From Minisyncoccota bacterium (GTDB lineage: Bacteria > Patescibacteriota > Minisyncoccia > Moranbacterales > GCA-2747515), in the NCBI GenBank assembly GCA_937936355.1, contig CALDDM010000024.1:1-38604 (forward strand): 38,604 bases of DNA, written 5' to 3'. The position numbers and the translations under genes were made by a program. The notes below the pieces were generated by a model that saw nothing but the letters and a program-made list of their open reading frames with translations, was not told where the DNA came from and ran no database searches. Every line of letters begins with the position of its first letter. Within the stretch, counting starts at the first letter, position 1. Below are positions 1,430-38,604 of the stretch, in pieces.

Positions 1430-3394
1430 TTATTCGCCTTTACCAAACAATTCTAGTTCACTGAGAAATTCTTTCTCAAAATCCTTGGGGATCACCGCTC
1501 CCACTGCAATATAGTTGATATCTTGTGTCCCATTTGTTGCATAGCCCTCTATCATCTCCTGATCACTGTGCGCGCGGCGCATGATGTCAGAAAAGTCGAA
1601 AACCTGGACGCCTGCCTCGTGACATTTCATGACAAATTGGGCCATTTTTTCGCGGGTACCAGATAGATTGCTCATGCCATAGAGTGCGTCCACATAGTGC
1701 TTACGCTCATCAGCATCTATGAGATGTTTGGTTTTGTATAGTTTTTCATCGCTGAACAGCCCAATCTCAATACCGAGTTGCCCTATCGCATTTGCACTTA
1801 CTCCATAGCCAACATCTTCGTTAGCTATAACAACGATTTTCTTTGATCTGTAGATTTTTTCTGCAGCTTTTTTGGATAGTTTTTCTTCATTGTTTTTTGG
1901 CTTCATCAAAGGAAACAATGTTACCTCCCGCAAAGTCTTATCTTCTAGGAAGGCAAAAAGGCGCTCACCCACACCAAATCCGCACGTTGGTGGCATCCCA
2001 TATTCAAGCATCTCAACAAAGTCCATATCAGGCATCATTGCCTCATCATCACCTGCTTCCAGTAGAGCTTTTTGCTCCATAAATCTTTCTTTTTGCTCAA
2101 TTGGATCATTGAGCTCACTGTAGCCGTTGCCAACCTCAGCTCCTGCGAGAAGGATTTGAAATCGCTCCACCTGACCAGGCTTCTTGGTCATTTCCTTTGC
2201 GAGTGGCGAGACGAGCTTGGGGTGACCTACAAGAAATGCAGGTCCTGCAATGTTTTTGCGGCAGTGTTTCCATAGGCTGTCGATATAACGCTCACGATTA
2301 TTACCGTCAAATTGCACGTTCAGTTCCTCTAATTTTTGCGCAAGTTCTTCTAGTGAGGCTTGTGTCACATCGATATGTACTTGTTTTTTTATCTCGCTTA
2401 CATAATCAATCATCTCCCACTCACCCGCTAAATCAAATACGTGACCGCGCGTAGAAAATTTTGTCGTGCCATAAACTTCTTGAGCAATGTGTCTGTAGAG
2501 GTCTTGCGTCATATGCATACCGTCTTCATAATTTGCATATGCCCAATAAAACTCCATATTTGTGAACTCTTGCAAATGATTTGGGCTAGACCCTTCATTT
2601 CTGTAAGCACGTCCGATTTCAAATGTCTTCTCAAAGCCACTTGCCATAAGCCTCTTTTGCCACAGCTCCCCTATGCTGATGCGTAGAAATACATCCATGT
2701 CGTAGTCGTTATGATATGTTGCAAATGGTCGCGCTTCTGCACCACCCGTTGTCACTTCCAGAGTTGGTGTCTCGACTTCAAGAAAACCCCTATCTTCCAT
2801 AAAGCGACGCATTGATCTCCAAAAATGACTTCTTCGCTCAAATGTTTTACGCTTATCTGCACTGAGTGTAAGGTCAATATACCTTTTGCGAAATTGCTCA
2901 TCCTCATCTCTCAGCCCAAAATGTTCAGCTGGCATATTCCGAAGAGCTTTTGTCAGCAACCTCCATGATGTAGTCATCAGGGATTTCTCCCCGGCTTCGG
3001 TAACAAATGGAGTTCCAGAGCACTCTATAAAGTCTCCCGTATCTATAAGCTTTGTAAATGGCTTGTACTTATCACTGTCTCGCAACTCTTTTTTTGAGAT
3101 GGCTACCTGTATCCGCCCTGACGCATCTTCCACATCACAAAAAGATAGGTTGCCGTGTGTCCGTTTGGAACGAATACGCCCAACTATTGTCACAGTATCA
3201 TTAGTATCTGATAGCTGTTCGAAATCAGTTAGTACAGAGTGTACTATATGTGTACGCTTTGCACTTGATGGATACGTATGAATACCTCTTTCCTCCAGCC
3301 TGCCAATCTTTAGGGATCGCTCACGAAACTCGTTAATTAGCTCATCCTGTTTGCCTGACTCATTCTCTTTTAAATTGGGATTGGAATCTGTCAT
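1430..3394 (-). CDS. lysS: class II lysyl-tRNA synthetase with C-terminal DUF2000-like extension
   Basis: Charges tRNA-Lys with lysine. The N-terminal OB-fold anticodon-binding domain covers roughly residues 60-165 (TIVGRIRSKRTHGNLSF). The class II catalytic core follows, with motif 2 as YRNEGSSPNHLQEF and motif 3 as GFGVGERLFAF before LFPLMKP; bacterial LysRS usually has GIGIDR, so the motif 3 Asp is Glu here. A normal enzyme ends near residue 507. This protein is 654 residues long, and about 508-645 forms a separate domain beginning KKIVVIANEDVGYG with VSANAIGQLGIEIG, which resembles DUF2000 (related to peptidyl-tRNA hydrolase 2). The aminoacylation role is secure; the extra domain's role is unknown. 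First gene of the lysS-HD-DUF1761 series. Confidence 0.93.
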   Translation of the reverse strand: MTDSNPNLKENESGKQDELINEFRERSLKIGRLEERGIHTYPSSAKRTHIVHSVLTDFEQLSDTNDTVTIVGRIRSKRTHGNLSFCDVEDASGRIQVAISKKELRDSDKYKPFTKLIDTGDFIECSGTPFVTEAGEKSLMTTSWRLLTKALRNMPAEHFGLRDEDEQFRKRYIDLTLSADKRKTFERRSHFWRSMRRFMEDRGFLEVETPTLEVTTGGAEARPFATYHNDYDMDVFLRISIGELWQKRLMASGFEKTFEIGRAYRNEGSSPNHLQEFTNMEFYWAYANYEDGMHMTQDLYRHIAQEVYGTTKFSTRGHVFDLAGEWEMIDYVSEIKKQVHIDVTQASLEELAQKLEELNVQFDGNNRERYIDSLWKHCRKNIAGPAFLVGHPKLVSPLAKEMTKKPGQVERFQILLAGAEVGNGYSELNDPIEQKERFMEQKALLEAGDDEAMMPDMDFVEMLEYGMPPTCGFGVGERLFAFLEDKTLREVTLFPLMKPKNNEEKLSKKAAEKIYRSKKIVVIANEDVGYGVSANAIGQLGIEIGLFSDEKLYKTKHLIDADERKHYVDALYGMSNLSGTREKMAQFVMKCHEAGVQVFDFSDIMRRAHSDQEMIEGYATNGTQDINYIAVGAVIPKDFEKEFLSELELFGKGE

Positions 3395-13945: not shown

Positions 13946-15088
13946 CTATAGAGTGAATGCATCAAAGTACCTTCTATAAATATATTTCCTATCATAACCA
14001 TCATTCTCATTGTATATTTCCAGTATACCTAAATCAACGAATCGATCGATAACTTTCAATGCGCCAGGACGAGAAAAATCTGTAACCTCCATAACTTTCT
14101 TGCTAGTAACAATTGGATAACTAAATAAAGCCTTCAGGACTTTCATGCTACTCTCCGATTCTCTTTTTGCGAGAACCTGCAATTTTTCTGTATCCTCATC
14201 CCTAATTCTTCGTATTTCCTTCGCAGCTATAATGCCTTCCTTTGCAGTCTCAACTGTGCCATCAAGAAAAAAATCAAGCCAAGACTGCACATCTCCACTA
14301 TGATAATCATTCAATTTCTGATAGTATAATTTTTGGTTTTTTTTGAAATATGAAGACAAAAAGAATACTGGCTCTTCTATAAGATTTTTCTTCTTCAATA
14401 AAAATGTAATGAGAAGCCTTCCAACTCGTCCATTTCCATCCAAGAACGGGTGAATCGTCTCAAATTGCGCATGAGAGTATGCTATATGTACCAATGACAA
14501 CGTTGAACTATCATCGTACAAAAACTTCTCTAGCTCATCCAAAGGTTTTTGCATGTTCTCAGGAGGCACAGGAATAAATGATGCATCTTTAAGAAGTCTG
14601 GCACCTAGCCAATTTTGAGACTTACGAAAATTACCAGGATCTGCAAAATGTGATGAACGTGCACCATCCATCAACTCTTTGTGAATCTCTCTAAGAAAGC
14701 GTAATGACAGTGGAAGTTTATCCAATCTCTCTAGTCCAAAATTTAACGCTTTTATATAGTAGATAATATCTTCAGCATCATTTTCCCCACCGTCAATACC
14801 TGCAGACTTTTCCAAGGCATCTGCCATTGTGGCCTGTGTTCCCTCTATCTGAGCTGATGATGTAGCATCCTTGTACGAGAACATCTTAAGAAAAAATTCT
14901 ATGTCAGGCAATGTCTGAGTTATGCCATCAAGTTTTCCAATAAGCCTTTCTGCCTCTGTTGCTTTATTTAGAGTCCCTTGACTCAATACAAACATCGCCT
15001 TTGCAGGAAAATCAACAGGAATCCAGGCTGTATACGCACTATCACCAGTCAAAATCCTTTGCTTTTTGCAGACTTCCAATTTGTTCAT
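13946..15088 (-). CDS. Fic-domain protein with N-terminal inhibitory helix and C-terminal winged helix
   Basis: Fic enzymes usually attach AMP to a hydroxyl of a target protein. The catalytic loop HPFLDGNGRVGR is complete (residues 213-224: His213 as base, Asp217 for Mg, Arg221 and Arg224 for phosphates). SAQIEG (residues 78-83) fits the inhibitory (S/T)xxxE(G/N) motif on the N-terminal side (class II), so the enzyme is probably self-inhibited by Glu82. A C-terminal winged helix (VMEVTDFSRPGALKVIDRFV, about 315-350) suggests DNA binding, which is common in this subfamily. Its control region has a consensus promoter overlapped by inverted repeats, consistent with autoregulation. The target protein is unknown. 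Confidence 0.92.
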   Translation of the reverse strand: MNKLEVCKKQRILTGDSAYTAWIPVDFPAKAMFVLSQGTLNKATEAERLIGKLDGITQTLPDIEFFLKMFSYKDATSSAQIEGTQATMADALEKSAGIDGGENDAEDIIYYIKALNFGLERLDKLPLSLRFLREIHKELMDGARSSHFADPGNFRKSQNWLGARLLKDASFIPVPPENMQKPLDELEKFLYDDSSTLSLVHIAYSHAQFETIHPFLDGNGRVGRLLITFLLKKKNLIEEPVFFLSSYFKKNQKLYYQKLNDYHSGDVQSWLDFFLDGTVETAKEGIIAAKEIRRIRDEDTEKLQVLAKRESESSMKVLKALFSYPIVTSKKVMEVTDFSRPGALKVIDRFVDLGILEIYNENDGYDRKYIYRRYFDAFTL

Positions 15089-28594: not shown

Positions 28595-29383
28595 TTAATT
28601 TTTAGCGCTTGCAAAGCCTACAACTCTTAGTGCGTCACCACAAAAACGGCAAAGATATTGCACACATGCACTATCAGACTCCATTTCAGGATTGCCTTCC
28701 CATAGACATAATGGACATTTCACCATATCTCCCTGAGTTGTTTTTGAGTCATGTTCTACACTAAAAGCCTGACGAATCGCTATGCCACCCATATCATAGG
28801 TTTTCCATGCAATGTGCTGCAGATCAGCAGCCAAGGGATTCTCAGACCACCTTTTAGTTAGTGCTTGCATCATGCGCAACTGAACTGTGAGCTTCTTTAG
28901 CTTATCAGTATTAAATCTCTCAAATACACTCTCTCCATTTTCCTCAAAATCATGGATAAGCTCTGTCATATTAGCGATGACATCTGCTGACTTTACGAGA
29001 ATCTGGTCATTAGTCATTTCTCTCACATGATCCAGAGCGACTTTCTTCCTTACATCATATGGATCATCTGGATTTTCTTCAGTCACAACCTTTACAAGAT
29101 TTTTCACCTCTACTCCAAATTCTTTTTTTATTTCGTCTAAAGTGACGGGATGATCAGGATGACAGTCCTCCACTGCGTCGTGCAATATTCCTGCCACAAT
29201 CACATTCTCATTGTTTGTTGCTTGTGAGAGAATCAAGCCAACTGTTAGTGGATGAGCGATATACGCCTCATCCTTCCCCTTTCTTTTCTGCTTCTGATTG
29301 ACTTCGTGGACCTCAGTGGCAAAGCGTATTGCTCTTTGCATTTTTAAAGTATATTTTTCTTCGTAGATATTCATAATGTTCAT
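28595..29383 (-). CDS. SpoT/MESH1-type HD hydrolase with C-terminal zinc ribbon
   Basis: A 262-residue protein whose N-terminal 180 residues match the (p)ppGpp-hydrolase HD domain: YIAHPLTVGLIL, then AGILHDAVEDCHPDHP (the HD plus ED pair), and ILVKSADVIANMTEL replacing the family's KLADRLHNM block. The synthetase and regulatory parts of RelA/SpoT are missing, so at most it degrades an alarmone or a related nucleotide. The last 50 residues carry CPLC and CRFC pairs, a probable zinc ribbon not usual for this family. Translation may start at the ATG at 29374. Its leader carries the inverted repeat and branched element at 29401-29510. Confidence 0.75.
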   Translation of the reverse strand: MNIMNIYEEKYTLKMQRAIRFATEVHEVNQKQKRKGKDEAYIAHPLTVGLILSQATNNENVIVAGILHDAVEDCHPDHPVTLDEIKKEFGVEVKNLVKVVTEENPDDPYDVRKKVALDHVREMTNDQILVKSADVIANMTELIHDFEENGESVFERFNTDKLKKLTVQLRMMQALTKRWSENPLAADLQHIAWKTYDMGGIAIRQAFSVEHDSKTTQGDMVKCPLCLWEGNPEMESDSACVQYLCRFCGDALRVVGFASAKN

Positions 29384-29731: not shown

Positions 29732-31201
29732 ATGCACAAACTAACAAAAACTGACTTCATCCAATTGCTCAACTGCCCTCAATCTCTTTGGCTCTTAAAA
29801 AATAAGCCAGAAGCATATAAAGAGTATGAAGCAGAATTTTCCCTCTTTCTCCAAAAGCTGATTAGAGAAGGTTATGAAGTTGAGGAGTACGTGACTCAGA
29901 TGTTTAAGGACGTGAAAGACCTAGAACAATTACCTACCAATAAGTCTCTGTCAGTGATAAATTCTCCAGGATTCTATTCTCAAGTTGCTCTGGAAACCTC
30001 TGAAGGTGTTTACGCTCGCCTTGATCTCGTTGAGTCACTTGGCGATAAGGTGATTGATATTTATGAAATTAAATCATCAACGTCTATCAAAAAAGACAAG
30101 AGACATAACCACCTCAAGGACATTGCCTTTCAAAAATATGTTGCACAGCAAAATGGCCTCACTGTCCGCGATGTGATTCATGTTCACCTCAATAAAGAAT
30201 TTATCAAAGATGGTGCCATAACGCCTGAGCATCTTCTCGTTCTAGAAAATGTAAATGATGCCGTAGTAGAAATCTACGATGCTACGTGTGAGGAGATTAA
30301 AATTGGCACAGATTTCATCAATCAAGATTCTATTAGTGAACATGCATGTGATTGTCTTGATAAGACATCCTCCAATCACTGCGACACATTTCGGTATTTT
30401 AACAGAGATATACCAACACATTCTATCTATGATCTGCAACGTATCAATCAAAAAAAGATTCTCGAATTACGTGAGCTTACTGTGTCTGATATTACAGACA
30501 TACCAACAGAATATAAACTCTCACCCTACCAAGAGCTGCAGCAGCTATCCCTACAAAGAGGTGAGCCGATCATTGATAAGCAGGAGGTGAAAGATGCTCT
30601 TAGCAAACTCACCTTCCCACTTTATTTCTTTGACTATGAGACACTGCCTTTTGCAGTTCCCAGAGTTAATGGTTATGGTCCACATCAACATACTCCAGTT
30701 CAGTTCTCACTCCATATCCTAGAAAAAAACGGTTCCCTAGAGCACAGAGAATACCTTGCCCAGATGCTTGAAGGACCTGAGAAACTCCTCTTAAAGATGC
30801 AAGAATATATTGGCACTACTGGCAGTTTGGTATCATGGTACGCATCATTTGAGATCTCCAAAAATCGTGAGATGAAAGAGCTGTATCCAGAATTTGCCTC
30901 ATTTCTCACAGATATTAATAATCGCACATTTGATCTCATGGACCCCTTTAGAAAAGACTATGTTGATGCAAAATTTCATGGCTCTAACTCTATCAAAAGT
31001 GTACTACCAGTACTTGTACCAGAGCTTTCCTACAAAGATCTAGAAATCCAAGGTGGCACAATGGCAGTTGATGCTGCAGAAAGACTCTACGATATGACTG
31101 ATCCTAATGAAATACAGGAGATCAGGAAGGCAATGCTTGCATACTGTGAACTAGACACACTTGCGATGGTCAAAATTTATCAAAAACTTCTAGAGATCTA
31201 G
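29732..31201 (+). CDS. DUF2779 nuclease: Cas4/RecB-like domain fused to DnaQ-like exonuclease domain
   Basis: A 489-residue cytoplasmic protein. The N-terminal part has a PD-(D/E)XK nuclease pattern: YARLDLVE (Asp98), IYEIKSS (Glu112-x-Lys114), and IAFQKYV (Gln134, Tyr136). Cys15 with Cys206, Cys208 and Cys217 could hold a Cas4/AddB-like 4Fe-4S cluster. The C-terminal DUF2779 part begins FFDYET (Asp301-x-Glu303), continues with LVSWYASFE and ends YCELDTLAM, the order of RNase H-fold 3'-5' exonucleases. It probably acts on DNA ends. Its stop is one base from the stop of the convergent FtsK-gamma gene; the defence operon follows. Confidence 0.8.
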   Translation: MHKLTKTDFIQLLNCPQSLWLLKNKPEAYKEYEAEFSLFLQKLIREGYEVEEYVTQMFKDVKDLEQLPTNKSLSVINSPGFYSQVALETSEGVYARLDLVESLGDKVIDIYEIKSSTSIKKDKRHNHLKDIAFQKYVAQQNGLTVRDVIHVHLNKEFIKDGAITPEHLLVLENVNDAVVEIYDATCEEIKIGTDFINQDSISEHACDCLDKTSSNHCDTFRYFNRDIPTHSIYDLQRINQKKILELRELTVSDITDIPTEYKLSPYQELQQLSLQRGEPIIDKQEVKDALSKLTFPLYFFDYETLPFAVPRVNGYGPHQHTPVQFSLHILEKNGSLEHREYLAQMLEGPEKLLLKMQEYIGTTGSLVSWYASFEISKNREMKELYPEFASFLTDINNRTFDLMDPFRKDYVDAKFHGSNSIKSVLPVLVPELSYKDLEIQGGTMAVDAAERLYDMTDPNEIQEIRKAMLAYCELDTLAMVKIYQKLLEI

Positions 31202-31202
31202 A

Positions 31203-31547
31203 CTATATTTTATCAACGTCTTTCTCTAAAATTTCTCGTGGCTTTGATCCATCCGCGGGCCCGATCACTCCATCATCTTCTAGCTCATCCATAAGTCTTG
31301 CTGCACGAGAGTACCCAATTTTCATTCTTCTCTGGATGTATGATGTTGATGCCTTTCCTGTGTCTTGTACAATCTTTTTTGCATCTTCATATATATCTCC
31401 ACTACTTTCATATAGTTTTCTTGCTTCGTTATCGTCAAATGCCTTTTTCATACTTTTTAGCGCATCATCATACTGCGCGTAAGAACTCACTTTCTTTTCA
31501 AGTTTTTCTATTCTCTCTAGGAGATCTGCAATTTCTTTATCTGACAT
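31203..31547 (-). CDS. stand-alone FtsK gamma-type winged-helix protein
   Basis: A 114-residue protein. After an N-terminal coiled coil (IADLLERIEKLEKKVSSY), residues about 47-114 match the FtsK/SpoIIIE gamma domain: IVQDTGKASTSYIQRRMKIG, YSRAARLMDELEDDGVIG and PADGSKPREIL. In FtsK this domain reads the polar KOPS/SRS motifs and activates XerD; here the motor and membrane parts are absent. The coiled coil may allow dimers or binding to another factor. It lies 40 bp after a second gene of the same type. Confidence 0.82.
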   Translation of the reverse strand: MSDKEIADLLERIEKLEKKVSSYAQYDDALKSMKKAFDDNEARKLYESSGDIYEDAKKIVQDTGKASTSYIQRRMKIGYSRAARLMDELEDDGVIGPADGSKPREILEKDVDKI

Positions 31548-31586: not shown

Positions 31587-31898
31587 TTAGATCTCAATCA
31601 CATCTCTTACGCCCTTACTGTTGATCTTACCTACAATACCATCAGCCTCGAGAATATCAAGTAGCTCTGATGCATATGATTTTTTAATATAGAATCTTTT
31701 ACTGAGAGCTGTCTTTGTTGTTCTGCCAGATTCTATAACATAACCCTTTACTTGATTGTAGAGAGTCTTTTCTTCAAGAACATCTATCTCATGATCATAA
31801 TGATAACCCTCCACCTCTTCTTCAGGCTTCTTTGCACCACATGCATAGCAATATGTATGCGAGTCCCCCATAAGTACGTCACAGTGTGAACAGTACAT
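31587..31898 (-). CDS. zinc ribbon plus diverged FtsK gamma-type winged helix
   Basis: A 103-residue protein. The N terminus has CSHC and CYAC pairs (Cys3, Cys6, Cys17, Cys20), a zinc ribbon. Residues about 45-103 (LYNQVKGYVIESGRTTKTAL, YASELLDILEADGIVG) align with the gamma domain of the neighbouring gene but have lost most of the basic recognition helix (KRFYIKKS against QRRMKIGYS), so DNA specificity has probably changed. First gene of the pair. Confidence 0.72.
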   Translation of the reverse strand: MYCSHCDVLMGDSHTYCYACGAKKPEEEVEGYHYDHEIDVLEEKTLYNQVKGYVIESGRTTKTALSKRFYIKKSYASELLDILEADGIVGKINSKGVRDVIEI

Positions 31899-32074: not shown

Positions 32075-34186
32075 TTACACATACTCAAATTTGATACTTT
32101 CTGACCCCAAATCAAAATCATCTACAAGTCCCTTGAGAAAATTTACCTTCTCCTCAGTATTCAAATTCGTTTCCACATAAATACCCGTATCTTCTATTTC
32201 AGATGGACGACGCAGATTTTCCTGTGTATCTGAGATGTACCTTTCATATTTTTCGTTGTGCAAGAAATTCTCTGCCCCATATTTTTCAAGGAAGACCAAA
32301 ATGATGCCCTCATAAGCTGATGTCCAGTTTGAGTGCTCAAAGACATCACCAAACAACCATACTTTTCGTAACTTCCTCCCCTTTAGGGAGCCCTCTAAAG
32401 CATCGTCAATTGAGATGGCTTCACTGACTTCTACAGGTACAAATTTTGTCTCAGGATATACCCACAAATCTGAGATTTCCCGCTTCCACCATGATGCACG
32501 CTCATTAAGGGCTTCCTCATTCCATTCTTCAACATTTTTTATATATTGATTAATGTGAAGTGGACTACTATCAAAACCATTTTTCATCGTCTTTTTATCT
32601 TCAAACTTACGATTAGAGTATTTTGCATTATACCCAGTCAACGTGAGATTTGCCAAAGTATGTAAATACGCATCATGTATCTCATCATGTCTTTCACCGA
32701 GGTGCTCTCGCCATTCCTGTGTGAGGGTTTGTGGCATGATATGCTCTACAGAAAAATTAGTTTTCTTTTGTGCGAAACCTTTTAGCAACTCAGATTCGTT
32801 TTTCTGATGAGCATCTTCCACAGAACTCAGGATATAATTTACATTTGCTATACGTTGCTGATAAATTGGGTTCGACTCAATAGCAGCTTCTAACTCTTGG
32901 CCAGTAGGAAAACGTAGATTCAATCTTTTGTGGATTAATACATATTTCAAATGATCTACATATGCGTGTCCACCATCATCTTTTTTGCCATAGCCTATAA
33001 TATCTCTATGCAAAGAAGCAAACATTTTAGCAAGGCCTGTAGTATTTAGCCTTACGACTAGACGACGGGAAAGGTAAGATTCAATTATATAGAAAATCTC
33101 CGCTACCTCATCCCCTGCTATCTTTTCTTTTTTCCACAATCCTAAAGCCCTCATCAAAAAGGGATACGACACTTCCACGCCTAAGTAGTGAAGTCTGAAT
33201 GCTGCCTCTGCATAACCAGTAAACTTTGCATTTTCATCCTTGAGAAATTTCAAAAACAAGTAACTCTCAAGATGATCTATAATGCCATCATAAAATTTAC
33301 GTACAGATTTTTCGTTACTATGATCATCTCCAATTTTTTCAGCAAAAATATCTTTAAACTCCTTATAAACATCACGAATAACAACATCCCTTTCTCTTTC
33401 AACCGTAATATACGCCTTAAAAAAATCAGAGATGTAGTCTTGATTAACATCTGTAAGATTTTTTTCGATCTTTTGCCAGTACTCTTCAAAAACAATTTTT
33501 CTGATGTCATCGTCATTGAGCATTAGTGAGAAGTTGCGAATCTTATCTCCATCTGTAAGCGGCTTCCCTGTTGAGTTAATACTCTCAAAAACCTTCTGCG
33601 GATTATCATCCCTCTCATCGAGCTTTACCTCCACAATCTGAAATCGATCAAGTGCGCCTATATACTCATGGATATTTTCTTTACCACTGAAGTAATCAAG
33701 GAATGTCTTATATGCTTTATATAGTCGAGATTCTCGCTCAGTTAATGTAAGTTTTTCAGCATTTCCGTTTGATTCATAAATCTTGCGATAGATTTGATTA
33801 TCAGACGTGACAGTTCTCAGTTTAATCCGCTTATCCTCATCACCAAATTCATTTGAAAGATAGGATTTATTGATCTGGTCAGCTGGCATCTCAGACTTTT
33901 CTTCATTAGCAAGGACCACATGATAAATAGCTGTCATCATAAGCAGTACAGTAGTAGTACGTTGTTGGCCATCAATGATCTTTTTCTCATTGATATTTCC
34001 ACTATCTATATAAACAACATTACCAAAATAGTGATTCCTATCACCTCCCTTTGCATTCTCAAGATCACGAAGGAAGCTCTCAATATTCTCTGCACTCCAA
34101 CTATATGGACGCTGAAAATCGGGAATATCAAAGTTTGCATTAGGCGTATAGAGAAATGCTTGAATTGTACTATCTTGGCTTTTCAT
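32075..34186 (-). CDS. GmrSD-type DUF262/HNH (DUF1524) nuclease
   Basis: A 703-residue protein. The N-terminal DUF262 domain shows IPDFQRPYSW (residues 21-30), DGQQRTTT (72-79) and FESINSTGKPLTDGDKIRN (200-218); this ParB-like fold hydrolyses NTP in GmrS. The C-terminal HNH part shows EHIMPQT (481-487), LANLTL (511-516) and N520-AKYSNRKF, the order of GmrD/DUF1524. The last 140 residues (LRKVWLFGDVFEHSNWTSAY and onward) look like a DUF5655-type tail. Such proteins are type IV restriction enzymes that cut modified DNA. It starts five bases after the preceding gene's stop, so it is part of the same operon as the helicase-methylase. Confidence 0.88.
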   Translation of the reverse strand: MKSQDSTIQAFLYTPNANFDIPDFQRPYSWSAENIESFLRDLENAKGGDRNHYFGNVVYIDSGNINEKKIIDGQQRTTTVLLMMTAIYHVVLANEEKSEMPADQINKSYLSNEFGDEDKRIKLRTVTSDNQIYRKIYESNGNAEKLTLTERESRLYKAYKTFLDYFSGKENIHEYIGALDRFQIVEVKLDERDDNPQKVFESINSTGKPLTDGDKIRNFSLMLNDDDIRKIVFEEYWQKIEKNLTDVNQDYISDFFKAYITVERERDVVIRDVYKEFKDIFAEKIGDDHSNEKSVRKFYDGIIDHLESYLFLKFLKDENAKFTGYAEAAFRLHYLGVEVSYPFLMRALGLWKKEKIAGDEVAEIFYIIESYLSRRLVVRLNTTGLAKMFASLHRDIIGYGKKDDGGHAYVDHLKYVLIHKRLNLRFPTGQELEAAIESNPIYQQRIANVNYILSSVEDAHQKNESELLKGFAQKKTNFSVEHIMPQTLTQEWREHLGERHDEIHDAYLHTLANLTLTGYNAKYSNRKFEDKKTMKNGFDSSPLHINQYIKNVEEWNEEALNERASWWKREISDLWVYPETKFVPVEVSEAISIDDALEGSLKGRKLRKVWLFGDVFEHSNWTSAYEGIILVFLEKYGAENFLHNEKYERYISDTQENLRRPSEIEDTGIYVETNLNTEEKVNFLKGLVDDFDLGSESIKFEYV

Positions 34187-34191
34187 GGCAC

Positions 34192-35106
34192 TTACTTTAA
34201 TTGACTAACAAATCTTATAATTTTATCCTCTTTCCAGTTTTTTATTTTTACATATTTACCATTATGTCCTTGAGGTTTATTTTCACGACAGCCCTTGCAC
34301 ACAAGCTCCTCCACACGATCAGACTCTAGGCCAAAGAGCGTGAGCGCACCTGATATAACTCGCCTACTATGTTTACAACTCATGGGGATCACATACTTCA
34401 ATCCATCCATCTGAAAGATGTTCCAACTGATGATCTCAGCAATGTCTTCTTGCATTTTAAGTGTGGGCTTCCTCTCAAACTTATCCGAATAATAATCAAT
34501 GAAAGTATAGAGGAGATTCTCTCGTGCAATCAAAATATTGTCTCCTTGCCACTCATATCCATATGAACTCTGAAATGCAATTTTTGCCCACTTAAGCCAT
34601 TCATTACGCTTATCGCAGTATTTTGAAACATATCGCATCTTCTTATCCAGAAACCCAACTCTTCTCTTGAGTGGTAAGACCTCTCTACTGTCAGAGACAG
34701 GATCATAACGTGAGACGACATATGGCGCTTCTCCACAGGTGATTTCGAGGCGTAACTCACTGACATAATCTTGCCAGTTAAACTTGGTAATTCTTCGTCT
34801 CTTATCCACAGAATCATTCATCTGCTTTACGATATGAAGCGGAGTAAACACCTCTGCCTTGTCTCGTGTACGGCGGATTTGCTCCTCACGACTTTTGGCA
34901 GCACGAGGTTGTATGACTTTTCCGTATATATCTGTCACAAGCCTAGGTAAAATCTGTTTACCAGACTCAAAAGCATTCCCTCTATTCTCATATGAATCAG
35001 TACACCACAAAATGTTCATTTTAGTAGTTTGATCCCTGAGTAACAAATCGAGAATATCACCTTTTTCTAATAGTCGATCTTCTACAATATCAATGTGGCT
35101 GCTCAT
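34192..35106 (-). CDS. restriction 'subunit M'-like protein
   Basis: A 304-residue protein. It carries AEVFTPLHIVKQMND (about residues 87-101), the segment that normally opens N6-adenine methylases of type I/IIG enzymes, then EITCGEAPYVVSRYD and AFQSSYGYEWQGDNILIAREN, and IISWNIFQMDGL. There is no FxGxG or NPPY motif, so it is not a full methylase; database entries of this type are usually named restriction subunit M and sit beside helicase-methylase genes. A late CxxC-like pair (CKHS, CKGC) may bind metal. It lies between the helicase-methylase and the GmrSD-type gene and probably belongs to the same complex. Confidence 0.65.
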   Translation of the reverse strand: MSSHIDIVEDRLLEKGDILDLLLRDQTTKMNILWCTDSYENRGNAFESGKQILPRLVTDIYGKVIQPRAAKSREEQIRRTRDKAEVFTPLHIVKQMNDSVDKRRRITKFNWQDYVSELRLEITCGEAPYVVSRYDPVSDSREVLPLKRRVGFLDKKMRYVSKYCDKRNEWLKWAKIAFQSSYGYEWQGDNILIARENLLYTFIDYYSDKFERKPTLKMQEDIAEIISWNIFQMDGLKYVIPMSCKHSRRVISGALTLFGLESDRVEELVCKGCRENKPQGHNGKYVKIKNWKEDKIIRFVSQLK

Positions 35107-35115
35107 CTTTTTTTT

Positions 35116-35355
35116 CTAAACGTCCTGAAAGTTTACAATATTACTTTCATTTTTAACCTGGACATTGCTCATAACGAAATCTCGTATACCCGTATCAACC
35201 TTATATTTCTCAAAAAGACATTCGTCAATTTCTGAAATAGTACCCTTCCACCACATCTCTGTATAGTCCTGAATCGGGACAGCGCCCCAAGCTGTTGTTG
35301 AATGTTGTGAATGCTTATTCAAATATAGAAGCGCCCTTGCAAAATTTGTCATCAA
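35116..35355 (-). CDS. C-terminal continuation of the helicase-methylase in another frame
   Basis: This 79-residue frame is not an independent gene. Its in-frame upstream extension reads EDAKYLMTNFARALLYLNKH, then VPIQDYTEMWW, CLFEKYKVD, which is the conserved tail of Eco57I-type methylases after the ExYxVxGxFD block (family pattern: sequence of A-x-x-x-YL-x-T-K-F-x-R, then VP-x-QDF). The preceding frame ends GVFDTYDLAQKTQST and stops at 35352. A one-base loss (or two-base gain) near 35370 splits the protein. No slippery heptamer is present, so this is a mutation or sequencing error. Confidence 0.7.
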   Translation of the reverse strand: MMTNFARALLYLNKHSQHSTTAWGAVPIQDYTEMWWKGTISEIDECLFEKYKVDTGIRDFVMSNVQVKNESNIVNFQDV

Positions 35356-38300
35356 GTACTTTGCGTCTTCTGTGCTAAATCATATGTGTCAAATACTCCA
35401 CTCTCTTGCCATGTTTCAGTAGTTGCAACATTTGGTCCCGCTATGATTATGTCGGCGTATGCTCCTCCCAGTCCTGATTTTTCAGACCAATTCCCCCATG
35501 CATATGGCACAAATACCTTATACTTTTTTAGCGCTTTTGTAACTTTTGGAAATGGATAATCTAATGGCACAAATTTTACTACTCTCCCACTTTTTCCACC
35601 AGTCCACAACTCAATATCGCTATTTTTTTTGCGCTCGTTCTGCACTTGAGGCAATTCACACTTTTTTGGATTTTGAAGGAAATCTGTGTGCAGGCCATAT
35701 GGCTTACGTGATGATGTAATTTTTTGTACAGGCTTAAAATTGGGAGTCATCTTCACGGTCTTTGCCAAATCCTCTATCTCTTTTGGTTTCTTTACCTCTT
35801 CCTTTCTCCAAACTAGTTTTTCATTTTTTTCACTTGTGCCATTAGTAAGAATTTTTTGCTTACCATTGAGCTTGTTATCATAGCCCTTTTTCCAGAAAAT
35901 AATATTAGTCCACTCTGCGCCAACTACTCCCGGAAAAGCATTTTGTACATTATCAATCTGTACTATTTGATGATCAGTTTTTATCTCTTTAGTATTTAAT
36001 TTACTCAAGTTATTTCCATCTTTAGGCTCTTGCCATCCAGTAGGAAAAATCAGCGAAACCACATCTCCCATCTCTCTCGCAGCCAGGTAGAAAAAGGGAT
36101 ATATTTGCTGATGATTGTCTCCCTGATATGGCGGATTTCCAATTATTGCGTCAAACTTCATATCACTTAGATTAAACTTCTTTTTTAATTCTGCATGGAG
36201 ATCGTAGTCTTTGTACCCATCAACTTTCTGCAATTTTTGTACAAGATCCTTTATGTAGATAATATTCGTCTGAGTACCAGAATATCCAGCTAGCGTCCGC
36301 TGTGTGATCATCTTTGCCATCGGACTTTTGCAGATGACATAGATATTATTTTCTATCACTGCAGACCAGAGACTTTCAAAGACATTTTCTTCACCATGAA
36401 ACTCACCAGAGAGGAGTTCTCTGTAAAAATTGTATGCTGCAAGCAATGGATACAGACCTGATTTACTGTTAATCTCCAGGACACGCGCATCCGTATCACT
36501 CCAGATTTTAGTAACATTGCCTTGATCTATCCACTTGGGTAGACCTGTTTCATTATTCATCTCACGAAAGTCACTCCCGCCAAGAGTACTACTAATATGA
36601 CGATTGACTACATCCCACGGTGTGAGGACTGTTTCTTTGTCGGGATTCTTAAACGTTTTGAAGATTTCAGCAATTGCTTGGATACGCTCATGTGGTGGTA
36701 GCTGATCACAATCATACGCCTTTGCTCTAATACTTCTCGTTACACCTCTGAAAACCTCTTCATCATAGTATTTTATGAACTTGCGAAATTGTTTTTTCGA
36801 GAGTCCTTTTGGCATAAACTCCTCCCATGATTCTGAGTCAACAAGATCAATGAAATCGTTTATGCCTACACCTTTTTCGACAGAGATTTTTGCTCCATAC
36901 ACAAGCATAGGCATACGAATACTCACAGCCCTAAGAATATCAATTGCCGTTTTCTTTTGTTTCCTAGCTTCTTGTAGTTGCTTTAGTACTTCCTTTTCTT
37001 TTTCCGTAAGTGATTTCTTTTTTCTTTTTTTCTCTTCTGCTTCTTCAGCCTTTTTTCTCTGCATTTCATCCATGCCGTGCTCATTGATTTTCACATCTTT
37101 GACGGATTTAGAGGATTGCGTACCCACTATCTCTTTTAAGTCACTAAATTGATTGAGGTCAACCTCCTGTAATTCTAGTAACTGATCATTGTATAATCGT
37201 GGATCATCAAAGCCATTTCTTGCAACCCTCTCTATTGCAGCCTTTTTGAGGCGCTCTAGCATATTATTTACATCAAAGGCCTTCATAGAGCCTTCGCTCG
37301 CAGCCAAGATAGGACAGAAATTAAGAAATTGCGCCATCTTTTCTTTTTGTTCTGCGGAATTCTTTTTACCTGCCTTGTGGTTGATCTCAATTGCTTCCGC
37401 TACGAGTCTGAGTGTGCGATCGGGAGCAAAATCAAAAACGTAACCTTTAGTCTTAATCTTTCCATCAATACGAGCAGGCGTTTGACACCGAAATGCAGTT
37501 TGCAGATAAGACGATGCAGAGTTTGTGTCAGATAGCATGAATACTGCTGTCCACTGCTTAATCGATGCTCCTGTTGTAAGTCTTTGACCTGTCAAAGTAA
37601 TAGTATAGTCATTTTTATCTATAGCTTTCTCTACTCTTTTTTTCGCATCCATATCTAGATCATCATCATTTTTTGGTGATCCAGAAATATTTACAATGCC
37701 AAAAGTACTGAATACTGGATGCTTATTAAGCAGAGACTCCATTGCTTCTATAATTTTTACCCTGTTCGGGAGTAGCCACATCACGTGCTTATTATACGAA
37801 CGATATTCCTCTGTTGCATACGGGAACTTTGTTTTAAGTCGATCATTTACAAGCAAATCCAAGAAACGATTTACCATATCCTCGTGCCTGAACTGCGGTA
37901 AATCATTACCTTCATCATCTTTTAGCACTCGGAAGAACTCATGAAACTTAAATGCCCCGTCAAGAGCATCACAAAACTCACCATTGCCAAAACCAATATC
38001 AGCGCTGAACTTGTCTATGTCATACGTAAACATTGAGATCTCTGGGAGATCAGCGTAAGGATTTGGAATGCCTGAGCATTTACTTTCCCATTCTTTTTTG
38101 GCGGCTTGTTCCATCACATAATCCCAGGTGTAAATCTCACTCTCATGGTGCTTATGCAATATATTAAAAGGTGTGCCAGATAATCTTAAAGCAAAACTCG
38201 CTGGCACTTTACCCAATGTAGCCATTCCTAAATCACTCTCTGTTCCCTCATGCGCCTCATCGATGATCATCATATCCCAATGATTCTCAAAGATTTCTTT

Positions 38301-38604
38301 GTTTTTTTCAAAGCCAGCAGCATTTGATTTTACAGACTTGTCGCCAACAACATCTTTAGAAAGTCGCAAATCTTGCAAAGATACAAAGTACACAAAAGGG
38401 TTATTATTTTCTATATGTGTAAGCGCATCTTCTCCAAGATGTTTTGAGCAAAATTGATACTCAGTATCCTTAAAGATCTTATCAAAATCTTCTTTCCAGT
38501 CTGTACTCACGCTTGGGCGATGTGTGATAATCAATATCTTTTTATACTGATTATCTTTAGCCACCTGCATAGCAGCTACTGTTTTACCAAAGCGCATCTT
38601 AGCA
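35352..38604 (-). CDS. SF2 helicase-N6-adenine methylase (Eco57I-type) fusion, open at window edge, frameshifted near C terminus
   Basis: At least 1081 residues; the 5' end lies outside the window (frame open to the last base). From the first visible Met: Walker A end RFGKT (residues 2-6), DEAH box (113-116), motif III LSGTPF (139-144), and motifs V/VI as TGQRLTTGASIKQW and QTAFRCQTPAR (366-376). A charged coiled coil (510-550) follows. The methylase has motif I as VLEINSKSGLYPL (706-718) and catalytic NPPY (821-824), then a target-recognition region. This layout resembles single-chain restriction-modification enzymes that translocate DNA. No nuclease motif is visible in the part shown. It ends early through a frameshift (see 35116-35355). 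Confidence 0.88.
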   Translation of the reverse strand, partial: AKMRFGKTVAAMQVAKDNQYKKILIITHRPSVSTDWKEDFDKIFKDTEYQFCSKHLGEDALTHIENNNPFVYFVSLQDLRLSKDVVGDKSVKSNAAGFEKNKEIFENHWDMMIIDEAHEGTESDLGMATLGKVPASFALRLSGTPFNILHKHHESEIYTWDYVMEQAAKKEWESKCSGIPNPYADLPEISMFTYDIDKFSADIGFGNGEFCDALDGAFKFHEFFRVLKDDEGNDLPQFRHEDMVNRFLDLLVNDRLKTKFPYATEEYRSYNKHVMWLLPNRVKIIEAMESLLNKHPVFSTFGIVNISGSPKNDDDLDMDAKKRVEKAIDKNDYTITLTGQRLTTGASIKQWTAVFMLSDTNSASSYLQTAFRCQTPARIDGKIKTKGYVFDFAPDRTLRLVAEAIEINHKAGKKNSAEQKEKMAQFLNFCPILAASEGSMKAFDVNNMLERLKKAAIERVARNGFDDPRLYNDQLLELQEVDLNQFSDLKEIVGTQSSKSVKDVKINEHGMDEMQRKKAEEAEEKKRKKKSLTEKEKEVLKQLQEARKQKKTAIDILRAVSIRMPMLVYGAKISVEKGVGINDFIDLVDSESWEEFMPKGLSKKQFRKFIKYYDEEVFRGVTRSIRAKAYDCDQLPPHERIQAIAEIFKTFKNPDKETVLTPWDVVNRHISSTLGGSDFREMNNETGLPKWIDQGNVTKIWSDTDARVLEINSKSGLYPLLAAYNFYRELLSGEFHGEENVFESLWSAVIENNIYVICKSPMAKMITQRTLAGYSGTQTNIIYIKDLVQKLQKVDGYKDYDLHAELKKKFNLSDMKFDAIIGNPPYQGDNHQQIYPFFYLAAREMGDVVSLIFPTGWQEPKDGNNLSKLNTKEIKTDHQIVQIDNVQNAFPGVVGAEWTNIIFWKKGYDNKLNGKQKILTNGTSEKNEKLVWRKEEVKKPKEIEDLAKTVKMTPNFKPVQKITSSRKPYGLHTDFLQNPKKCELPQVQNERKKNSDIELWTGGKSGRVVKFVPLDYPFPKVTKALKKYKVFVPYAWGNWSEKSGLGGAYADIIIAGPNVATTETWQESGVFDTYDLAQKTQST

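Follow-up and report, generated by a model that had tools for sequence, protein, structure and literature searches.

What kind of system is encoded at one end of the 38,604-nt stretch of Minisyncoccota DNA analyzed here (hereafter, the window, which is the entire contig C24, positions 1 to 38604, of a 1.2-Mb draft genome)? The genes in question code for a helicase/Eco57I-type methylase, for a protein of the kind annotated as "subunit M," and for a GmrSD-family protein. On the available evidence, the locus is probably a horizontally spread ATP-dependent restriction-modification system of Type ISP-like layout, which carries a T5orf172 nuclease on its motor chain and an adenine methylase that is split between two polypeptides. 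An earlier note on this DNA had described a restriction-related cluster of three genes on a single strand; both points are supported here, with the three genes found at 32075-34186, 34192-35106, and 35352-38603, all on the minus strand. The features of the locus are as follows.

35352..38604 (open reading frame 35352-38603), minus strand: the R-MTC gene (helicase/Eco57I methylase), main frame, with the stop at 35352 and with the 5' end missing beyond the contig boundary.
35116..35379, minus strand: the last ~87 codons of R-MTC, shifted into another frame and coding for the end of the target recognition domain.
34192..35106, minus strand: subunit M (SUBM), 304 aa, the predicted S-adenosylmethionine (SAM)-binding N-terminal half of a gamma-class adenine methyltransferase (MTase), with motifs X, I, II, and III and without NPPY.
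32075..34186, minus strand: a GmrSD-family protein (DUF262 plus DUF1524/HNH), 703 aa, a putative optional type IV accessory, with both Pfam domains and their motifs.

Transcription runs from R-MTC through subunit M to the GmrSD-like gene. The 5-bp gap between the latter two genes stands as previously reported, whereas the 10-bp gap given for the first two was counted as 9 bp and exists only when the frameshift is read through, the main frame of R-MTC ending at 35352.

Subunit M had been regarded as carrying methylase-like segments without catalytic motifs. This holds for the NPPY motif, which is lacking in the window protein and in all members of its family (0 of 118), but not for the SAM-binding part of the molecule. 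Although a Pfam scan of subunit M returned no match, the protein matches the PADLOC profile MTase_II (E-value of 3.5e-99) and contains recognizable motifs X (AEVFTP), I (LEITCGEAP), II (YGYEWQGD), and III (QMDGL). The same motifs, with motif II in the form YGxEWQGD and LEITCGEAP marking the motif I region, stand out in the family alignment, where many positions are invariant; each of the four is present in 98 to 113 of the 118 members (83 to 96%). Judging from these sequences, subunit M appears to be half of a methylase and no mere leftover.

The long chain, R-MTC, presents the reciprocal picture. In the window, it matches the Pfam domains ResIII (4.8e-12) and Eco57I (1.4e-15) and displays the superfamily 2 (SF2) helicase motifs, namely, Walker A (GKT), DEAH, SGTP, and QxAFRxQ, followed by a coupler, by an altered SAM half (referred to below as MTN) with ETVLTP and with EINSKSG replacing GxG, and by a catalytic half (MTC) that contains NPPYQ along with the larger part of the target recognition domain (TRD). 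In the long chains of this family, the Gly-rich SAM loop of the N-terminal half reads (D/E/N)xxxKxG in all 82 chains where it could be resolved and never has the canonical GxG form; the Lys residue is also found in 7 nuclease-helicase chains that lack NPPY. All 11 annotated plasmid pairs show the same division, the long chain having K-x-G and its small partner being devoid of NPPY, and several of these partners have the canonical loop EPAAGDGNF. Since the long chain has NPPY and the TRD but no GxG, and its partner has the SAM motifs but no NPPY, each is expected to supply what the other one lacks. Subunit M, with its intact SAM-binding half, would dock on the NPPY half of the long chain, and the resulting complex would methylate host sites.

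The loci of the relatives were collected through subunit M, so that adjacency to the long chain is the property being tested. In nearly all relatives, from many phyla and including plasmids, subunit M adjoins the long chain, in line with the earlier proposal that these two proteins belong together; on a 10-kb Pediococcus plasmid (pRS5, L011), the pair represents the only restriction genes. Where subunit M seemed to be absent (in Patescibacteria and Lactobacillales), its place is taken by a neighbor of 220 to 260 aa, which usually has a canonical SAM loop (EPACGTGNF or EPAAGDGNF) and always lacks NPPY. A profile of this second type of partner also retrieves subunit M proteins, so both types can be assigned to one family. 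That a K-x-G chain may work alone had been suggested by two Patescibacteria genomes in which subunit M was not detected at an E-value of 1e-10; this idea was rejected, as both encode, next to the methylase, a divergent partner whose SAM loop is canonical.

At least 555 loci of the subunit M family are present in one genome collection. Among the matches listed, the closest ones come from metagenome-assembled genomes titled Bacteroidota (identity of up to 66%) and from a scattering of Patescibacteria. Neither of the two congeneric genomes searched yielded a match to subunit M, and nearly all of 333 members of the phylum are also devoid of it, a rarity that points to horizontal spread. Scans of viral contigs with single sequences yielded no relatives; the relatives there were found with profiles.

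The natural REARRANGEMENTS seen among these relatives suggest that evolution has both joined and separated the two halves of the methylase. In phage and provirus relatives, the halves are either fused into one gene or encoded by two, with no motor in the latter case. Subunit M and the NPPY-TRD half share one open frame in L009 (a Fusobacterium phage) and in the IMG/VR loci L107 and L115, with the motif order X-I-II-III-IV(NPPY)-TRD that is divided over two genes in the window; L108 is arranged likewise apart from an internal stop. A separate nuclease-helicase gene follows the fusion in L107, L108, and L115, and its product ends in the K-x-G half near the point at which NPPY would be expected to begin; in L101 there are three separate genes. 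Bare catalytic halves that start at xxFDxxIGNPPY are encoded beside a separate SUBM in L008, L093, and L101; those of L093 and of Tenacibaculum phage PTm1 (L008) begin with MKF(D/N)xIxGNPPY. In PTm1, a recognizable MTN sequence upstream of the catalytic half contains in-frame stops, and SUBM and MTC are both open.

An AlphaFold2 model of the natural L115 fusion forms one confident unit (pLDDT of 87, pTM of 0.85). In a Foldseek search, its matches in the PDB include BrxX/PglX, BpuSI, MmeI, LlaBIII/LlaGI, DrdV, and M.TaqI, with E-values from 1e-9 to 1e-5 against known gamma-class MTases and modest TM-scores, up to 0.46 by query length. Thus, the SUBM-MTC fusion resembles the gamma-class N6-adenine MTases (those just listed and CamA) both in the X-I-II-III-IV-TRD order and in predicted fold. 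However, the known enzymes keep the SAM-binding and NPPY halves in one chain, whereas here they are found in two, and the catalytic chain additionally bears the motor and the nuclease.

Some phage contigs encode subunit M far from any catalytic half (IMG/VR contigs L105, L109, L110, L114, and L116 to L118); two of these contigs have a strong catalytic-half match elsewhere, in one case inside a larger protein. Of the IMG/VR records with subunit M as a solo gene, ten in all, two show a strong match of this kind (E-value of 1e-49 or better) and two a weak one; none was found in the other six, which may be fragments. The idea that the solo phage proteins serve as decoys is weakened by the two strong matches. 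In the region L143:9591-13744 (on the same contig as L096, IMG/VR UViG_2524614553), the long-chain gene is followed by an extra NPPY-TRD module in the same orientation, by an inverted one, and by a tyrosine recombinase gene. Inverted repeats of 33 nt (97%) and 160 nt (76%) lie on the codons of xAIIGNPPYQ, so that recombination between them would exchange the catalytic/recognition half precisely where the methylase is split. On small Gram-positive plasmids (L150, L151, L152, L153, L155, and L157), a site-specific integrase is often encoded within a few kilobases of the pair; by analogy with the hsdS shufflons of Type I systems, these integrases could possibly serve recognition-domain switching.

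The apparent lack of a nuclease motif in the first gene, remarked upon previously, is an effect of truncation. The window copy of R-MTC is cut by the contig end and begins at the Walker A motif, so that ~170 N-terminal residues are absent; a search of all other contigs of the assembly did not find them. Full-length relatives, which comprise 1336 aa in the same-order relative G033 (L012:1997-6007) and about 1410 to 1420 aa on lactobacillus plasmids, open with a T5orf172 domain (E-value of 5e-6 in G033, above the Pfam cut-off there and in P0002), which we take to be a GIY-YIG-type nuclease. The G033 protein consists of T5orf172 (residues 14 to 125), ResIII (147 to 319), and Eco57I (928 to 1067) domains, followed by the TRD, and MUG113/T5orf172 matches were also obtained in L115. 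The Mrr nuclease had no Pfam match in the relatives, where T5orf172/MUG113 was matched instead. Because full-length relatives start with T5orf172, the system is expected to have a nuclease of its own. The earlier note had named, as an observation that would count against a joint system of the three genes, a nuclease at the N terminus that would let the first gene act by itself; such a domain is what the relatives contain, outside the window's own sequence. On unmethylated foreign DNA, the SF2 motor would translocate from the site and the N-terminal nuclease would cut.

This domain order, observed in relatives (the N terminus is missing in the window), resembles that of the Type ISP enzymes LlaGI and LlaBIII, in which nuclease, SF2 helicase, coupler, gamma-class MTase, and TRD follow each other in one long chain (PMC4666363). 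These two enzymes are also among the structural matches of the models. Type ISP enzymes are further characterized by ATP-driven translocation and by cleavage between head-to-head sites. However, the nuclease of Type ISP enzymes is Mrr and that of the present family is T5orf172; Type ISP enzymes are self-contained single chains, while the present long chain has a K-x-G loop and appears to depend on a second subunit for the SAM half. In addition, searches of solved structures in the PDB with subunit M and the long chain, by sequence and by profile, detected no relatives of either protein. As neither the Mrr nuclease nor a single self-contained chain is found here, the system is not filed as Type ISP and is best described as a new variant of ATP-dependent restriction-modification.

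Several observations weigh against this interpretation. The T5orf172 match is weaker in other relatives, some N-terminal domains fall below the threshold, and the nuclease of the window itself was never seen, because its copy is truncated (and frameshifted as well). Four more MTN chains could not be resolved by the motif search. Most importantly, the K-x-G half is strictly conserved, and together with the catalytic half it also models as a CamA-like MTase (pLDDT of 81, pTM of 0.69). Such a model and a motif I that is invariant over 40 aligned proteins indicate some conserved role for the K-x-G half, which constitutes the main uncertainty; it might bind SAM through K-x-G, given that M.TaqI tolerates AxAxG in its SAM loop (PMC8187626). 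Finally, if both N-terminal halves are present, they cannot share one catalytic half simultaneously.

These data could be read to mean that MTN-MTC is a complete methylase that binds SAM via K-x-G and that subunit M is a noncatalytic pseudo-methylase, which helps in DNA binding or in forming a heterodimer of the METTL3-METTL14 style. The high conservation of MTN, the full-length match of MTN-MTC to a CamA-like gamma-class fold, and the existence of active gamma-class enzymes with noncanonical motif I loops (PMC8187626) would all fit this view. Nevertheless, we consider it rather unlikely, as the phage and provirus enzymes consist of SUBM and MTC without MTN (L009, L008, and L093), stops interrupt MTN and spare the other two parts in L008, the SAM loop of several partners is canonical (EPACGTG or EPAAGDG), and the Lys residue is universal in the resolvable MTN sequences. 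As a tentative and still doubtful extension of the split-methylase reading, a single NPPY-TRD half could be common to two competing SAM-half folds, forming a methylase with subunit M and a SAM-blind sensor of sites for restriction with the K-x-G half, with the exchange between them deciding whether the complex methylates or cuts.

The state of the window copy is a separate matter. DNA alignment with the intact 1336-aa homolog from G033 reveals a single missing base at about position 35364, and the copy that carries this frameshift may be inactive, unless it reflects an assembly error. The locus could accordingly be viewed as a decaying remnant without function in this genome, the frameshift having removed the end of the TRD; the missing base itself and the failure to match subunit M in the congeneric genomes agree with such a view. 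However, the first gene is free of further stops over about 1170 codons, the second and third genes are open with all their motifs intact, and a single-base error in a draft contig would be an adequate explanation, all of which makes decay a rather improbable state of the locus.

The third gene was correctly recognized as GmrSD type: both of its Pfam matches, GmrSD_N (6.4e-35) and GmrSD_C (4.6e-23), are above the cut-off, and the DUF262 motifs QRPYSW, DGQQR, and FESIN are intact, as is the DUF1524 motif EHIMPQ. Members of this type IV family are characterized by cleavage that depends on modification and on NTP. Its PADLOC matches include Orf5 (5.6e-110) and HEC-06 (1.6e-56), the latter being among the best. 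The DUF262 profile was run on the flanks of about 116 loci, about 1.16 Mb in total; two of these loci, L028 and L030, look like near-duplicates. All 13 matches were located at most 1.03 kb from a core gene, and for 12 the distance did not exceed 150 bp, even though stretches less than 1 kb from the core make up only 18% of the flanks (about 82% lies beyond). Because of this clustering, the association is real, and the presence of the gene in the window is no coincidence, as had been surmised. The view of the three-gene order as a conserved unit found no support in the comparison: only a minority of loci carry DUF262 genes, which are found upstream or downstream of the core, mostly on the same strand, and belong to diverse subfamilies. 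Where alignable, their products are 22 to 33% identical to that of the window, and some lack an HNH-like motif.

Genes for RhuM, DUF1016, and Fic proteins occur in the same neighborhoods but are less tightly placed. In the window, a Fic/DOC-family protein (Fic_N, 6.7e-19; Fic, 3e-18) is encoded at 13946-15088 on the minus strand, and Fic genes are also found beside the core in L018 and L063. A DUF2779 protein (1.8e-34) is encoded at 29732-31201 on the plus strand, next to the defense genes and opposite to them, and L024 has a DUF2779 gene 3.3 kb from its core.

A GmrSD protein next to a methylase system had been considered unusual, a view contradicted by published data: GmrSD homologs are enriched beside Type I restriction-modification genes (PMC4619093), BrxU forms a separate complementary layer in BREX and spared host N6-methyladenine (PMC8565348), and a Type I operon contains TgvAB, as Hma contains HEC-05/06 (PMC11411939). 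For BrxU, TgvAB, and HEC-05/06, as in the window, a protein with DUF262 and DUF1524 domains is found beside or within a modification-based system; the difference is that Hma, BREX, or Type I is replaced here by a host system of the T5orf172/split-methylase kind. The loose association matches the repeated capture reported for GmrSD homologs in those systems, which, with the separate action of the layers in BREX and the sparing of host N6-methyladenine by BrxU, favors an independent second layer. By analogy with BrxU and TgvAB, an independent type IV defense is the likeliest role of the GmrSD gene, whose product would separately attack phage DNA with modifications that escape the first system.

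A working partnership, in which the GmrSD protein is recruited by the motor or, in the manner of SspE with phosphorothioate, recognizes the methyl mark made by the products of the first two genes, could account for the tight and mostly same-strand placement of DUF262 genes, and SspE sets a precedent as a DUF262-HNH effector whose action requires host modification (PMC9646914). However, the variable position and low similarity of these genes, their absence from most loci, including the plasmid L011, which has the pair alone, and the independence of the layers in the closest published parallels (PMC8565348, PMC11411939), with BrxU sparing host N6-methyladenine, make such cooperation quite improbable. 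In the Ssp system (SspABCD-SspE), phosphorothioation genes adjoin the DUF262-HNH effector; the neighbors scanned in the window are of methylase type, with no phosphorothioation gene among them.

In the open-access literature, no description was found of this gene pair, of the combination of T5orf172 with Eco57I, or of a natural split adenine methylase, even though REBASE may list the genes; the system is widespread in bacteria but apparently unstudied. If the split-methylase reading is correct, genes currently annotated as "restriction endonuclease subunit M" and "Eco57I methylase" would code for a single heteromeric enzyme in a large and widely distributed family. Such an enzyme would be an adenine methylase that is bisected in nature and has its catalytic half on an ATP motor, explaining the puzzling "partial" methylase genes. 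It would make the division between SAM binding and target recognition directly testable, with a naturally swappable recognition module, and would provide embedded GmrSD enzymes with another host, which is neither BREX nor Type I.

Several other genes of the window, all on the minus strand, are worth recording. A class II tRNA synthetase (D/K/N type) and a C-terminal DUF2000 domain are combined in one chain at 1430-3394, and at 28595-29383 a RelA/SpoT-like HD hydrolase domain stands alone, with a C-terminal tail rich in cysteine. Two small tandem proteins (31203-31547 and 31587-31898) have ends that, by eye, resemble FtsK-gamma-type winged helices, and one of them opens with a CxxC zinc-ribbon-like stretch.

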